Source of the DNA: a virus
Reading direction: 5' to 3' (one strand)
Virus record (IMG/VR): IMGVR_UViG_3300032285_002163
Coordinates: 1 to 37,838 of that record
DNA: 37,838 bases
Made by a program: the position numbers and the translations under genes. Shown here piece after piece: positions 284-10,833 of this stretch (its first letter is position 1; each line of letters begins with the position of its first letter). The notes beneath the pieces are model-generated. The model was not told the DNA's origin and ran no database searches. It saw only the letters and a program-made list of their open reading frames with translations.

Positions 284-1342
284 ATGGGAAAAGCCTTCGA
301 TATTTCGAAGTTCCGTAAGTCTATCACCAAGTCTATTGACGGACTTGGTATAGGCTTTAATGATCCGACAGATTGGATCTCAACGGGCAATTACGCACTC
401 AACTACCTTATTTCCGGTGACTTCTTCAAAGGAGTTCCATTAGGCAAAGTAACGGTATTTGCTGGCGAATCAGGAGCAGGTAAGTCGTACATCTGTTCAG
501 GTAATATTATCAAACATGCTCAAGAACAAGGCATTTATGTTGTCTTAATCGACTCAGAAAATGCGTTGGACAAGGCTTGGCTAGAAGCACTAGGTGTTGA
601 TATTTCAGAAGATAAACTGCTGAAACTTAACATGGCTATGATTGATGACGTTGCTAAAACTATCAACGAATTTATGACAGAATACAAATCAATGGATGCT
701 ACAGATCGTCCAAAGGTTTTGTTTGTAATTGATTCGCTAGGTATGCTGTTAACACCAACTGACGTAAATCAGTTCGAAGCAGGAGATCTTAAAGGTGATA
801 TGGGTCGTAAGCCTAAAGCACTTACGGCACTGGTTCGTAACTGTGTTAATATGTTTGGTAATTATAACGTCGGCTTGGTATGTACTAATCACACATACGC
901 TTCGCAAGATATGTTTGATCCGGATGATAAAATCTCAGGAGGACAAGGCTTCGTTTACGCATCTTCTATCGTGGTTGCTATGAAGAAGTTGAAGTTAAAA
1001 GAAGATGAAGATGGTAATAAAGTTAGTGACGTACTAGGTATTCGTAGTGCTTGTAAGATTATGAAAACCCGCTATGCGAAACCATTTGAATCAGTCCAAG
1101 TTAAGATTCCATATTCAACAGGTATGGCTCCTACGTCAGGTTTAGTTGACATGTTCGAAAAGATGGGTGTATTGTCTAAGGTTGGTAATAAATTAGCGTA
1201 CACCAGTAAAGAAACTGGTGAAATTGTTGCCGAGTTCCGTAAAAATTGGACAGAAGATAAGTTACATATCATTATGAAAGAGTGGGACGCAACTGCGGCA
1301 CAAACATTAACTACAACTATCGATACAGAGGAAGAAGCATAA
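284..1342 (+). CDS. uvsX: UvsX, RecA-like recombinase
   Basis: 352 residues, close to T4 UvsX (about 390). It is the strand-exchange ATPase that forms filaments on ssDNA for recombination-dependent replication. Walker A is GESGAGKS (residues 61-68). A Walker B-type strand ends in FVID (147-150), followed by SLGML. A conserved polar stretch NHTYAS lies near residue 205. The C-terminal tail is acidic (IDTEEEA). The ATG has an AAGGAG Shine-Dalgarno 8 nt upstream. The stop codon overlaps the next start in TAATG. The recA/uvsX assignment is secure. Confidence 0.95.
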   Translation: MGKAFDISKFRKSITKSIDGLGIGFNDPTDWISTGNYALNYLISGDFFKGVPLGKVTVFAGESGAGKSYICSGNIIKHAQEQGIYVVLIDSENALDKAWLEALGVDISEDKLLKLNMAMIDDVAKTINEFMTEYKSMDATDRPKVLFVIDSLGMLLTPTDVNQFEAGDLKGDMGRKPKALTALVRNCVNMFGNYNVGLVCTNHTYASQDMFDPDDKISGGQGFVYASSIVVAMKKLKLKEDEDGNKVSDVLGIRSACKIMKTRYAKPFESVQVKIPYSTGMAPTSGLVDMFEKMGVLSKVGNKLAYTSKETGEIVAEFRKNWTEDKLHIIMKEWDATAAQTLTTTIDTEEEA

Positions 1343-2048: not shown

Positions 2049-3274
2049 TGTTTGTAGAAACACTAATACAACGGCTGGCTGGCTACGACAAATTTATATT
2101 TGAGCCAGAGATGGTATCTCCTGGTTGGGAGAGGAATTTTGTTGAGTCGTTAGCAAATCAACTGTCTAACGGTAATACACTTACTGAAAAACAGGCCAAT
2201 CTATCTATCAAACTTATAAAGAAATATAAACCTCAATTAGAGGCATATTTCAAAACAACGCTTGATTTAGATAATCCAGTGTTTGCTCATCCTTTTAGAA
2301 AACTTTATATCGAAAAGAGTATTACAGTTAATAAAAACTCAATATATGTAAAGTTTCCGTATGATGAAGCAATAATTAAATCTATCCAGAAATTTGTCAG
2401 CGATACAGCATGGACTCCCGAAACTGGTTATCAAAACTCTAGTCATAAAGCCGCAGTCGGCGCATGGAATCACGAAGATAAAGTGTGGTCGTTCTCGTTA
2501 AGAGAAGAAACAGTTTTATGGTTAGGAACAACATTAGTCCCGCAGGGATTTGTTGCAGATGATACATTTAAGAATTGGTTTGATGACATCAACAACATTA
2601 TTTGCCAAGCAGATGAATATGCGATCACAGCCGTTAATGATGGAGACCGATTCAGTTTTAAAAATGCATCTTCAAAGATTCCCAATTTAGAAACTTCAAA
2701 CGTAATTGAGTTTCTGTTTCATGCTAAGAACTACGGGGTTAGTATTTGGGATCAGGCTATAGATGCTAGATTAAAAGAAGAAGTAAAATCTCCGGTTACT
2801 CTGGCGTTCTTAAACAACCAAGGTATGATATACGTTGACAGCAATGTGTATGAGCTAGATCATTTTAAAGAATTAATTTTATTTGGCGGACCAGTGTTAA
2901 TTGTGATTCCTGGTGGTAGTGAAATAAAACATACTAAAGCATGGCACCAACTGGCATTAGATGCAGGAATTAATAATTCTGAAATCAGTGTGATGTTTAG
3001 AACTCCTAATCAAGACAATGGCGGATTTAATCAGTACGTTAAAGAAAATGAGTTGAATAATATTGTGTCTGAAAATACCAAAGTAGTTTTTGTTAGTACA
3101 AAAATTCCTAAACCTTTGGTCAAATCTGGTATTGAATTTAATACAGTAATCAACTTAGGTTACTATAACAATATGCATTTTAGTATGAACATTCTCTTGA
3201 CTTCGCCAGCCAACATAGTGTATTATAACGATAAGAAGCCCCAAGGAGCAACTATTTGTCTACCGCAAAACTGA
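2048..3274 (+). CDS. helicase-like protein without Walker motifs, partner of UvsW
   Basis: 408 residues, not assigned to a known family. Residues about 95-160 (ITVNKNSIYVKFPYDE, then KVWSFSLREE) resemble the HARP/SMARCAL1-type module that precedes SF2 motor domains. The C-terminal half alternates short beta strands and helices (GPVLIVIPGG, TKVVFVST, NTVINLG) like a RecA-type fold, but there is no GKT/GKS Walker A and no DExH box. It overlaps uvsW by 19 nt, which suggests coupled translation. A catalytically dead helicase paralogue serving as an accessory subunit is inference from this pattern. Confidence 0.6.
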   Translation: MFVETLIQRLAGYDKFIFEPEMVSPGWERNFVESLANQLSNGNTLTEKQANLSIKLIKKYKPQLEAYFKTTLDLDNPVFAHPFRKLYIEKSITVNKNSIYVKFPYDEAIIKSIQKFVSDTAWTPETGYQNSSHKAAVGAWNHEDKVWSFSLREETVLWLGTTLVPQGFVADDTFKNWFDDINNIICQADEYAITAVNDGDRFSFKNASSKIPNLETSNVIEFLFHAKNYGVSIWDQAIDARLKEEVKSPVTLAFLNNQGMIYVDSNVYELDHFKELILFGGPVLIVIPGGSEIKHTKAWHQLALDAGINNSEISVMFRTPNQDNGGFNQYVKENELNNIVSENTKVVFVSTKIPKPLVKSGIEFNTVINLGYYNNMHFSMNILLTSPANIVYYNDKKPQGATICLPQN

Positions 3275-4713
3275 TCATCAAAGATGAGGTCAACGTAAAA
3301 TTTGAGAATTTAGATTTAGATACTAGAAAAGAATTAGTAAAGAAATTCAAGTATTTTAATCAGGCCGCACGGTACCAACCTGCATACAAATTAGGACGTT
3401 GGGACGGCTGTACGAGCTTCTTTGGATTGGGCGGGACAACCTATGTTAGTATGCTTGATCAAATATTACCTTACTTAGAAAGTCAAGGATACTATATCGA
3501 AGTAGAAGACGAGAGAGTTAGTCCTGTACTAGAGTTTGAAAAAATTAAAGAAGACTTCTGGGGCGATATGTGCTGGCCAGAAGGACATCGCTTTGCCGGA
3601 GAGCCAATTAGGCTACGTGATGACCAGGTTGAAGTAGTTAATACATTCTTAGAAAATCCACAGGCACTACAGTCAGTGGCAACAGGTGCAGGCAAAACTA
3701 TTATGACTGCAACCCTGAGTAAGATTTGTGAAAAATATGGCAGAAGTTTAGTTATTGTTCCGAATAAGAGTCTTGTAGAACAAACTGAAGAAGATTATGT
3801 TAACGTTGGACTAGATGTAGGTGTATACTATGGAGATCGTAAAGATTTAGGCAAGACACACACTATTTGCACATGGCAATCATTAAACATACTTGATAAG
3901 AAAACTAAAAACGGTGAAGCGGATCTTATTACTTTGGCTGAATTCCTTGAGGGAGTTAGTTGTATTATTGTTGACGAAGTTCACCAAGCTAAAGCAGAAG
4001 TATTAAAGAATTTATTGACACAAAACTTGCGTAATGCTCCTATCCGTTGGGGACTTACTGGTACTGTTCCTAAAGATCCGCTTGAGTTTGAAAGCATTAA
4101 GTGTAGTCTTGGTCAAGTAGTAGGTTATGTTACTGCACATGAATTGCAAGAAAAAGGCATCTTAAGTACATGTCACGTTAATGTAATTCAAACACAAGAA
4201 TGGAAAGAGTTTCAAACTTATCCAGAAGAATTAAAGTATCTAGTCACCGATGATACTAGAATGGAGTGGGTTAGTAAGTTAGTCAAGGGCATTGCCGATA
4301 CTGGTAACACCCTAGTATTAGTAGATAGGATCGAAACAGGCGAATTCATCATAAACGAAATTCCCGAAGCGGTGTTTATCAGTGGTAAAATAAAATCAAC
4401 AAAACGCAAGGAACAGTATCGTGAAGTGGCAACTAATGATGACAAGATTATTGTGGCGACTTATGGTGTGGCCGCTGTGGGTATTAATATCCCTCGTATT
4501 TTTAATTTGGTTCTTCTGGAAGCCGGAAAGAGCTTTGTTAGAGTTATACAAAGTATTGGACGAGGTATTCGCAAAGCAGAAGATAAAGACTTCGTACAAA
4601 TCTGGGACATCACAGCGAACACCAAATACGCCAAGAGACACCTAACAGAACGTAAAAAGTTTTATAAAGAAGCCAAATATCCGTTTACGATTGAGAAGGT
4701 AAAAACTCCATGA
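3256..4713 (+). CDS. uvsW: UvsW, SF2 DNA/RNA helicase
   Basis: 485 residues, close to T4 UvsW (about 500). This is the RecG-like branch-migration and R-loop helicase that shifts T4-type phages to recombination-dependent replication. Walker A ATGAGKT is at 142-148, motif II DEVH at 240-243, motif III LTGT near 267, and motif VI QSIGRGIRK at 432-440. The N-terminal 115 residues form the DNA-recognition domain. The start is a TTG at 3256, chosen because a perfect AAGGAG lies 7 nt upstream inside the end of the preceding gene and no ATG occurs near. It ends with an ATGA overlap. Confidence 0.95.
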   Translation: MSTAKLIIKDEVNVKFENLDLDTRKELVKKFKYFNQAARYQPAYKLGRWDGCTSFFGLGGTTYVSMLDQILPYLESQGYYIEVEDERVSPVLEFEKIKEDFWGDMCWPEGHRFAGEPIRLRDDQVEVVNTFLENPQALQSVATGAGKTIMTATLSKICEKYGRSLVIVPNKSLVEQTEEDYVNVGLDVGVYYGDRKDLGKTHTICTWQSLNILDKKTKNGEADLITLAEFLEGVSCIIVDEVHQAKAEVLKNLLTQNLRNAPIRWGLTGTVPKDPLEFESIKCSLGQVVGYVTAHELQEKGILSTCHVNVIQTQEWKEFQTYPEELKYLVTDDTRMEWVSKLVKGIADTGNTLVLVDRIETGEFIINEIPEAVFISGKIKSTKRKEQYREVATNDDKIIVATYGVAAVGINIPRIFNLVLLEAGKSFVRVIQSIGRGIRKAEDKDFVQIWDITANTKYAKRHLTERKKFYKEAKYPFTIEKVKTP

Positions 4714-6938: not shown

Positions 6939-7630
6939 TTCAATTGGCTGAACAACCTTTTAATTGCACACATTGTGGCAAGGCCTTCATGAAAGAGAAG
7001 ACCTTGTTTGCTCACATGTGCGAGCCCAAACGCCGAGCAATGCAAAAGGACGAAAAACGTGTTCAGAGTGGATTTTATGCCTTTAATCAATTTTATAAAA
7101 TCAGACAAGGCGCCAAGAAACAGAAAACTTACGATGAATTTTGCAAGAGTGCATACTACAACGCCTTTGTAAAGTTTGGTAGTTTCTTAAACAACGTGGC
7201 TCCGCTGTATCCTGAAAAATTCATAGATTTTGTGATTAAAAGCGACATTAAACTTGATCACTGGTGCAGAGATGAACTGTATGATACCTATCTTTATGAG
7301 ATGTTGAAGATAGAACCAGTTGAAGCCGCATGCCAGCGCACTATCACAACAATGATTGAGTGGAGTGACTCGAGCGGTGCTCAATGGAACCACTATTTCA
7401 ACTATGTTAACTTTAATCGAGCAGTACATGACATTAAGAATGGCAAGATCTCTGCATGGGTCATGTTAAATTGCACAAGTGGCAAAAAGATGCTTGAAAA
7501 CTTTAACGATGAACAATTAGAACTCATTGACAAGGCACTAGATATTCCATTCTGGGTCAAACATTTTAAATCTAACAAAGATGATGTTGCTGTCGTAAGA
7601 GAAATCTGTGAGGGGAGCGGAATTGAGTAA
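6935..7630 (+). CDS. zinc-finger protein conserved in T4-like phages
   Basis: 231 residues. The N-terminus carries one C2H2-type finger: C11-x2-C14 in NCTHCGKAF, then H27 with C29 (AHMCE) as the second pair. The rest is helical and aromatic, with YDEFCKSAYYNAFVKFG and DHWCRDELYDTYL. From memory this architecture recurs near replication genes of marine T4-like phages, but its activity is not established. DNA or RNA binding by the finger is inferred. Confidence 0.82.
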   Translation: MIQLAEQPFNCTHCGKAFMKEKTLFAHMCEPKRRAMQKDEKRVQSGFYAFNQFYKIRQGAKKQKTYDEFCKSAYYNAFVKFGSFLNNVAPLYPEKFIDFVIKSDIKLDHWCRDELYDTYLYEMLKIEPVEAACQRTITTMIEWSDSSGAQWNHYFNYVNFNRAVHDIKNGKISAWVMLNCTSGKKMLENFNDEQLELIDKALDIPFWVKHFKSNKDDVAVVREICEGSGIE

Positions 7631-7952
7631 ACCAATGCCATATTCAAACGCACTGGCAAAATTTTGTGAAGCGTTTGAAGCTGTTCCATCGTCGAGTGAT
7701 CGAAAGTTTTATAGGCGTACTAGGGTCGACTGGTCTGACTACAATGACCCTAAGATTGATTACGTTACTGAGACAGTAGATGCGGTAGCAATACATATTC
7801 CTATCTATAAGTTAGACGATTTTGTCAGCGCAATTGATGAGCAGAAATATAAAGAGATGGAAATACGTGATAATGTGCCTGCTGTGAAGTTAGCATACGA
7901 ACGTTATCAACTAATGTTAAAAATGTGTGGAGGCGACTTTGCCGGATATTGA
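7623..7952 (+). CDS. conserved small protein, unknown function, TTG start
   Basis: 109 residues (SKPMPYSNALAKFCEAF at the N-terminus). Candidate starts are GTG 7608, TTG 7623 and ATG 7635. TTG is preferred because AGGGGAG lies 5 nt upstream, whereas ATG 7635 has no such site at the right distance. The C-terminal segment VPAVKLAYERYQLMLKMC is a long helix. It overlaps the next gene by 14 nt if that gene starts at its own TTG. No known domain. Confidence 0.72.
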   Translation: MSKPMPYSNALAKFCEAFEAVPSSSDRKFYRRTRVDWSDYNDPKIDYVTETVDAVAIHIPIYKLDDFVSAIDEQKYKEMEIRDNVPAVKLAYERYQLMLKMCGGDFAGY

Positions 7953-8526
7953 TATTGACTTCGCTGATAGAACAAAGATACTAGATATTGTCAAAAATAT
8001 CACTGCATCCATTGAAGAAGATGGAAATTTTAAGAAGCACAACACAGGTGTGTACTGTCATTCTATTCCATACAACCCCTTAACAGGATTATCTACTATA
8101 GATTATAAGGAAGCAGAAGAGCGAGGGTATTTTAAGATAGACTTTTTGAATGCCAGCGTGTACAACTCAATAAAAAGCGAAAAACACATCAAAGATCTGC
8201 TGGCTGTCGAACCTCTATGGGATTTATTGGAACAAAAGGATTTTTGTGATTTGATATTCCATGTAAATGGATATCATAATTTGATAGCGGAACTAAAACC
8301 TAGAAGTATTGAAGAATTGGCTATGTTTTTAGCCCTGTTGAGACCGGGGAAAAAGCATCTTGTCTCGATTGTCAGTGAAAAAGGCTTCCAAGCAGTGAAA
8401 AATGAAATCTGGGTTAAAACAGAAGACGCTTATTACTTTAAGAAAAGTCATGCTGTTGCCTATGCTCATGCTATTGTGGTACAGATGAATCAAATCTGTG
8501 AATCAATTAGCTATCCTTACGCCTAG
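7939..8526 (+). CDS. miniature DNA polymerase III alpha (DnaE)-like protein
   Basis: 195 residues containing, in DnaE order, four blocks typical of bacterial Pol III alpha: PDIDIDF (2-8), holding the paired catalytic aspartates; YFKIDFLNASV (64-74), matching the KFDFLGL block with the third aspartate (D68); KPRSIEELAMFLALLRPGK (120-138); and FKKSHAVAYAHA (167-178). Full DnaE is about 1,160 residues, so nearly all of PHP, thumb, most fingers and beta-binding regions are absent. The TTG start is chosen for the perfect GGAGG 5 nt upstream. A GTG at 7927 is the alternative. Polymerase activity is doubtful; a decoy or clamp-loader contact is possible. Confidence 0.75.
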   Translation: MPDIDIDFADRTKILDIVKNITASIEEDGNFKKHNTGVYCHSIPYNPLTGLSTIDYKEAEERGYFKIDFLNASVYNSIKSEKHIKDLLAVEPLWDLLEQKDFCDLIFHVNGYHNLIAELKPRSIEELAMFLALLRPGKKHLVSIVSEKGFQAVKNEIWVKTEDAYYFKKSHAVAYAHAIVVQMNQICESISYPYA

Positions 8527-9834: not shown

Positions 9835-10833
9835 ATGAATCTGATTCAAGCGACATTTATAAATTTCTTACCTCCAAAAAGAAAGGCAACTCCGAGTGGA
9901 TGGATCAGTTTCAACGCACCCTGTTGTGTCCACAACGGAGACTCATCAGACAAGCGGCAACGTGGGGGCGTCAAAACATCAGGTGATGACGGTTTTCAGT
10001 ATCATTGCTTCAATTGTGGTTTCAAAGCTGGGTGGATGCCTGGTAAACTATTAAGTAAAAATACTAAAAATCTCATGAGGTGGATGGGAGTACCAGATGA
10101 TGACATTAACAAGTTATCACTCGAAGCACTCAAGAATAAAGAAGAATTAGACAAAACGCCGATACCCCTAAATTTTGGGCTCGAACCACGAAATTTGCCA
10201 GAAAATTGCAAAACTATAGATCAGTGGATTGAAGAAGGTTGCGAGGACGAGGATTTTTTAAATGTCATTGCCTACGTACTTGACCGAGGGATGGAGCTCG
10301 ACTGGTATGACTGGATGTGGACTCCTGAGGCAGGTTACAAAGATCGCGTAATTTTGCCATTTTTTCATAAAAATGTGGTTGTAGGCTGGACAGCCCGAAA
10401 AATTCGTGATGGCAAGCCAAAGTACTTGACTACTGCTCAACCAGGATATGTTTTTAATTTAGACAGACAAGACGAAAATAGGAAATTTGTGATTGTTGTT
10501 GAAGGGCAGTTTGACGCGGTTGCAGTAGACGGTGTTGCTATCATGCATAATGAGCCAAATCCTACTCAAATTTCACGAATTTCTGCACTAGGACGTGAAG
10601 TCATTATTGTCCCTGACAACGACAAGCCTGGGGCTAAATTAATATCCGCGGCCATAGACAACCATTGGTCGGTTAGTTTGCCAGACTGGGGACCAGACGT
10701 TAAAGACGTTGCAGATGCAGTGAAGAAATTTGGCAGAATTTACACACTTTTCACCATTTTACAATACCGTGAAACTGGTGAGACGAAAATTAAACTTTTA
10801 AAGAAACAACTTGAAAACAAACATGACGACTAA
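9835..10833 (+). CDS. gp61-like DNA primase
   Basis: 332 residues. The N-terminal zinc-binding region has C30, C31 and H33 in CCVHNGDSS and C58-x2-C61 in HCFNCGF. The central Toprim domain has EGQFDA (222-227) and VPDND (258-262), the metal-binding acidic motifs of DnaG-type primases. T4 gp61 (342 residues) has the same size and layout and synthesises RNA primers with the gp41 helicase, encoded immediately downstream with an 11-nt overlap. Start ATG 9835 follows the preceding gene by 9 nt. Confidence 0.92.
   Translation: MNLIQATFINFLPPKRKATPSGWISFNAPCCVHNGDSSDKRQRGGVKTSGDDGFQYHCFNCGFKAGWMPGKLLSKNTKNLMRWMGVPDDDINKLSLEALKNKEELDKTPIPLNFGLEPRNLPENCKTIDQWIEEGCEDEDFLNVIAYVLDRGMELDWYDWMWTPEAGYKDRVILPFFHKNVVVGWTARKIRDGKPKYLTTAQPGYVFNLDRQDENRKFVIVVEGQFDAVAVDGVAIMHNEPNPTQISRISALGREVIIVPDNDKPGAKLISAAIDNHWSVSLPDWGPDVKDVADAVKKFGRIYTLFTILQYRETGETKIKLLKKQLENKHDD

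Follow-up and report, generated by a model that had tools for sequence, protein, structure and literature searches.

Does a 195-codon open reading frame that carries sequence blocks of DNA polymerase III alpha (DnaE), in a fragment of a phage genome, encode a leftover of that polymerase or part of a working enzyme? The question arises at open reading frame A of a 37,838-nucleotide stretch of viral DNA, referred to here as the window. A first-pass annotation had described A as a miniature DnaE relative with four recognizable blocks in order and almost all of the polymerase removed, and had proposed that it serves as a decoy, an inhibitor of host Pol III, or a partner-binding scaffold. The relevant features of the window are as follows.

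284 to 1342, plus strand: UvsX-like recombinase gene (PHROG_97), in the conserved neighborhood upstream of A, by synteny
3256 to 4713, plus strand: UvsW-like DNA helicase gene (PHROG_16), in the same conserved upstream neighborhood, by synteny
7608 to 7952, plus strand: small open reading frame of 114 amino acids that overlaps the start of A; by position, a small frame also lies directly 5' of A in several relatives
7929 to 7933, plus strand: putative ribosome-binding site GGAGG, read from the sequence, 5 bases 5' of the TTG start of A
7939 to 8526, plus strand: open reading frame A, 195 amino acids and a stop codon with a TTG start, the predicted C-terminal half (Mg-binding palm and truncated fingers) of a split minimal Pol III alpha
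7942 to 7962, plus strand: PDIDIDF block, A residues 2 to 8; Asp3 and Asp5 correspond to E. coli DnaE D401 and D403
8131 to 8148, plus strand: FKIDFL block, A residues 65 to 70; Lys66 and Asp68 correspond to DnaE K553 and D555
8437 to 8466, plus strand: FKKSHAVAYA block, A residues 167 to 176; His171 corresponds to DnaE H760, the modeled steric-gate residue
8507 to 8896, minus strand: convergent gene (PHROG_11637, no Pfam match) sharing 20 bases with the 3' end of A
9835 to 10833, plus strand: gp61-like DNA primase gene (PHROG_47), in a conserved replication neighborhood, by synteny

The window thus holds a T4-type replication and recombination set (UvsX, UvsW-like helicase, and gp61-like primase) in the order seen in RaK2 and PBECO4. 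UvsX and UvsW-like genes lie 5' of A in several relatives, and a small convergent gene, followed by primase and helicase genes, lies on its 3' side. A convergent gene was found at this position in every annotated relative inspected (RaK2, PBECO4, Paride, Phosso, Atu_ph07, and Slicko01), where the genes around it are otherwise mostly co-oriented. Most relatives, by a rough count, have ATG at the position of the TTG start of A. A 5' neighbor of A (PHROG_11058, 6935 to 7630, plus strand) begins with a C2H2-like zinc finger (Pfam E value of 0.0035, below the cut-off), and a protein with a similar Cys/His start is encoded two genes upstream of A in Slicko01.

The blocks of A follow the DnaE order, namely PDIDIDF, FKIDFL, KPRSIEELAMFLALLRPG, and FKKSHAVAYA. 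The protein matched PHROG_11778, annotated as "DNA polymerase," with an E value of 8.9e-65, and Pfam DNA_pol3_finger with an E value of 8e-4 and 19.2 bits, just under the curated cut-off of 22 bits; the same Pfam family was detected at an E value of 0.1 or less in 82 of 97 relatives. Profile-profile comparison using hhalign aligned A to DnaE residues 512 to 640 (E value of 3.7e-7; the hhalign values given here for A and B, the second gene described below, are for single comparisons), and the first block of A corresponded to DnaE 400 to 406. Profiles were needed for this, as a PDB search with the single A sequence returned weak DnaE matches that ranked below chance matches to AP-3. An AlphaFold2 model of A (pLDDT 91.7, pTM 0.81) was superposed with VIA-align, and residues 1 to 192 fell on E. 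coli DnaE 400 to 781 (2hnh) with a Z score of 9.4 and a root mean square deviation of 3.6 over 185 residues; the corresponding score against residues 461 to 838 of the T. aquaticus ternary complex (3e0d) was 10.0, while unrelated chains scored below 3. Foldseek gave no match under an E value of 0.001 for the model of A or that of B, though DnaE ranked first, and the mapping of both proteins onto DnaE rests on VIA-align and sequence profiles together. Because the PHROG, Pfam, and profile-profile matches and the superposition of a confident model on DnaE 400 to 781 agree, the four DnaE blocks in A are real and beyond chance, as the first-pass annotation had read them. The predicted fold is that of the Pol III palm, and not an unrelated one.

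Comparison with DnaE also defines what A has lost. Using conserved motifs as anchors, D5 to H34 of A spans 29 residues, versus 108 for DnaE D403 to H511, an interval that we take to hold the thumb from the domain limits of the E. coli structure. Likewise, R135 to H171 spans 36 residues, versus 121 for DnaE R639 to H760, and the DnaE arginine pair R709/R710 falls in the stretch deleted from A. Nothing is present past about DnaE residue 781. At 195 amino acids, one-sixth of the length of the cellular enzymes, A is therefore without the PHP, thumb, clamp-binding, and OB regions, and it does not form a complete one-chain palm either, as it begins at DnaE residue 400 and the GRGS-containing half is a separate gene in relatives. 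Cellular DnaE from E. coli, Thermus aquaticus, and M. tuberculosis nevertheless has in common with A the palm topology, the Asp triad, the KxD lysine, and the RPG and FxKSH finger motifs. Full-length phage DnaE (PHROG_405, a family profile of 1,190 positions) was only a weak match (2e-8); unlike A, its members are single chains of roughly 900 to 1,160 amino acids or more that carry the thumb and GRGS in the same chain. Since R709/R710 lie in the deleted stretch and the thumb is missing, the activity of an enzyme built from A and B could be lost or altered, judging from these sequences.

In a 97-member alignment, D3, D5, and D68 of A, which are equivalent to DnaE D401, D403, and D555, were invariant, as were K66, R11, H34, R135, P136, K168, H171, and Y175. 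The retention of the catalytic aspartates, read earlier from a single sequence, therefore extends across the family. H760 of E. coli DnaE, the counterpart of H171, has been proposed as a steric gate from structural modeling (PMC8485763). A wider set of 145 A loci was fetched by protein similarity, and 141 of these fit a pattern requiring the aspartates. The other four were read by eye: two keep them (MDIDMDF), one (L235) is cut by a contig end before the Asp block, and one (L249, IMGVR_UViG_3300013126_000015) reads MPDIVIDF, in which the second catalytic Asp has become Val. This last was the only such loss among the loci read, and may reflect a sequencing error or else a dead copy; random loss of the aspartates was not seen. 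Pairwise dN/dS of A was about 0.05 to 0.12 in pairs with estimable dS, and A is thus under strong purifying selection.

The remainder of the palm was found by searching relatives' genomes with PF07733. In 8 of 11 records, this search did not match A and instead recovered a second open reading frame (B) of about 170 amino acids, matched over profile positions 13 to 98, just upstream of PDIDIDF in DnaE. B carries GxGRGSS or GRGSC, and its translations close with EFL and one or two further residues. Its profile aligned to E. coli DnaE 320 to 393 (hhalign E value of 8.4e-11), ending at the last column of B itself. Since B ends at DnaE 393 and the first block of A matches DnaE 400 to 406, the cut through the palm falls between residues 393 and 400. 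The B model was moderately confident (pLDDT 68.2); its residues 61 to 168 superposed on 2hnh 274 to 401 (VIA-align Z score of 7.1) and residues 63 to 169 on 303 to 422 of another bacterial DnaE, 5lew (Z score of 9.0), so that B of near-complete relatives corresponds to about DnaE 274 to 393 with the GRGS motif. Within B, G135, G137, R138, G139, S140, and S141 were invariant in 52 sequences. The two models occupy adjacent, barely overlapping parts of one palm and would meet at a putative interface, as read from superposition with a B model of this moderate confidence. A and B are not paralogues of the same segment, as their profiles do not align to each other (E value of 0.62). The B gene was not found in the 37.8-kb window, itself a genome fragment; it is present in a 345-kb relative whose A is 70% identical to that of the window, as well as in the other large genomes searched for it. 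That almost all of the polymerase has been removed, as first noted, is thus an incomplete view, since relatives encode the remaining half of the active site in a second gene. A alone is not a lone remnant, and the earlier functional proposal was made without B.

The distribution of the two genes was examined next. By tblastn, A was found in 63 phage records, each at 80% coverage or more, mostly large RaK2-, PBECO4/121Q-, PA5oct-, and Atu_ph07-like phages together with two 141-kb Alishewanella phages, and at least 548 IMG/VR stretches hold relatives. When records were matched by accession, 59 of the 60 in one tblastn listing for A also appeared in the B listing, the exception being PP728206, a 109-kb record. 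With fENko-Kae01 and Slicko01, which hold both genes, A and B occur together in at least 61 of the 63 A-bearing records; Slickus01, in which A is present, was left out of the B count. The two genes lay from about 11 kb (Slicko01) to well over 100 kb apart in the records inspected. A family B polymerase, expected from the first reading of the window, was found in relatives of the window phage: the same 8 of 11 related records that carry B also carry it, and the 3 without B, contigs of 145 to 191 kb, lack it as well. Including Slicko01, all nine checked records that hold both A and B encode a family B polymerase. Alishewanella phage Slicko01 (OQ508956.1; loci L319 and L320), at 141 kb, is below jumbo size and extends the A-B system beyond jumbo phages. 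The family B polymerase match fell in two separate open frames in Atu_ph07 (NC_042013.1, 212336 to 213688), Paride (OR805295.1, 88906 to 92683), and Slicko01 (OQ508956.1, 3529 to 5033); by sequence, the family B replicase could itself be split or interrupted in these phages.

Bacterial and archaeal genomes were also searched for a minimal version with the halves joined and for a cellular home of A. Among the matches listed, only two contigs of metagenome-assembled genomes held an A-like gene (PUKM01000272.1, binned as a Natrialbaceae archaeon, and NZHE01000029.1, binned as a Rickettsiales bacterium), and these are probably mis-binned phage contigs. The other cellular matches listed were distant, mostly actinobacterial, and over part of A, and were taken as full-length polymerases.

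These data bear on the proposal that A acts as a decoy or inhibitor, imitating a portion of the palm of host DnaE and thereby titrating or blocking the host's Pol III or the partners of Pol III. A is DnaE-like and occurs in phages that encode a family B replicase of their own, as such a role would predict; however, a surface mimic needs neither metal-binding aspartates nor a steric-gate histidine, both of which are invariant in A, and A has none of the clamp- and tau-binding regions of DnaE. The complementary half, with its GS motif, is moreover separately encoded and conserved in the same genomes. We therefore regard a decoy as highly improbable, and the same observations speak against a simple scaffold.

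The evidence points to a two-subunit enzyme, given that the Asp triad and steric-gate His are invariant and that the same genomes have a separate gene for the GS-motif half of the palm that A lacks. In T4-like large phages, A is probably the C-terminal subunit of a two-gene enzyme, a split, minimal, and thumb-less polymerase or nucleotidyltransferase of the C family (Pol III alpha type). A would contribute the metal-binding Asp triad, the KxD lysine, and short fingers bearing the steric-gate His, and would be expected to assemble non-covalently with B into a heterodimer with one active site, presumably using dNTPs. Processive replication is unlikely for A-B, in which the PHP domain, the thumb, the clamp-, tau-, and OB regions, and about 85 residues of the fingers are missing; the enzyme would more plausibly make short patches (repair, gap filling, or end or primer processing) beside the family B replicase of the phage. 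That the heterodimer, formed from two half-palms, carries out nucleotidyl transfer outside replication (short-patch synthesis, priming, or end processing), and that the phage needs this beside that replicase, is a tentative proposal, possible but less likely than not.

Two other readings of the A-B pair were weighed. A complex that is catalytically dead and serves as a structural part of the phage replisome would be in keeping with the missing thumb and partial fingers, with the position of A upstream of primase and helicase genes, and with that of B near the clamp loader gene in RaK2 and Paride. It is unlikely, as the catalytic triad, KxD lysine, GRGS motif, and steric-gate His are invariant across wide divergence. 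An active nucleotidyltransferase other than a template-directed DNA polymerase, such as an end-adding or base-modifying enzyme, would suit a Pol beta-like palm that has no thumb and whose fingers are reduced. Yet A retains the H760-equivalent His, which selects the sugar, together with the RPG and FKKxH motifs of the fingers, as an enzyme using dNTPs on a template would be expected to do, and we give this reading a small chance.

The kind of protein described here was already predicted by Iyer et al. 2021 (PMC7824862), who reported that the minimal Pol III alpha of group 2.2 jumbo phages consists of two separately encoded proteins, an N-terminal NTP-binding half and a C-terminal Mg- and template-binding half, beside a family B polymerase, and who suggested on computational grounds that the pair possibly serves one-strand synthesis or repair. 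A of the window is a further member: like their C-terminal half (PHROG_11778, subunit A), it is a standalone protein, and its relatives likewise encode a family B polymerase and a distant N-terminal partner. It differs in being about 32 to 48% identical to members in named phages, and a 141-kb phage is among the carriers of the pair. Earlier, in 2018, a paper on Atu_ph07 had noted that this phage and its relatives have a Pol III alpha as well as an epsilon subunit (PMC6102473). Biochemical or genetic follow-up on A or B was not found in open-licence PMC papers. The residue-level mapping, structural complementarity, co-occurrence counts, dN/dS, and 141-kb Alishewanella phages are new beyond the earlier prediction.

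Members of the widespread A family often carry no annotation beyond "DNA polymerase" or "hypothetical protein," and A seen by itself can easily be mistaken for a remnant or decoy. If A-B is active, its C-family polymerase core would be very small, and a polymerase active site shared by two genes that divide the palm would be a rare arrangement. Such an enzyme would reveal how small a portion of Pol III alpha suffices for catalysis, and one would have to ask why a second enzyme, of bacterial type, is retained by a phage that has a family B replicase of its own. Should the split be ancient, A-B may be similar to an early form of Pol III, a suggestion made by Iyer et al. 2021 (PMC7824862).
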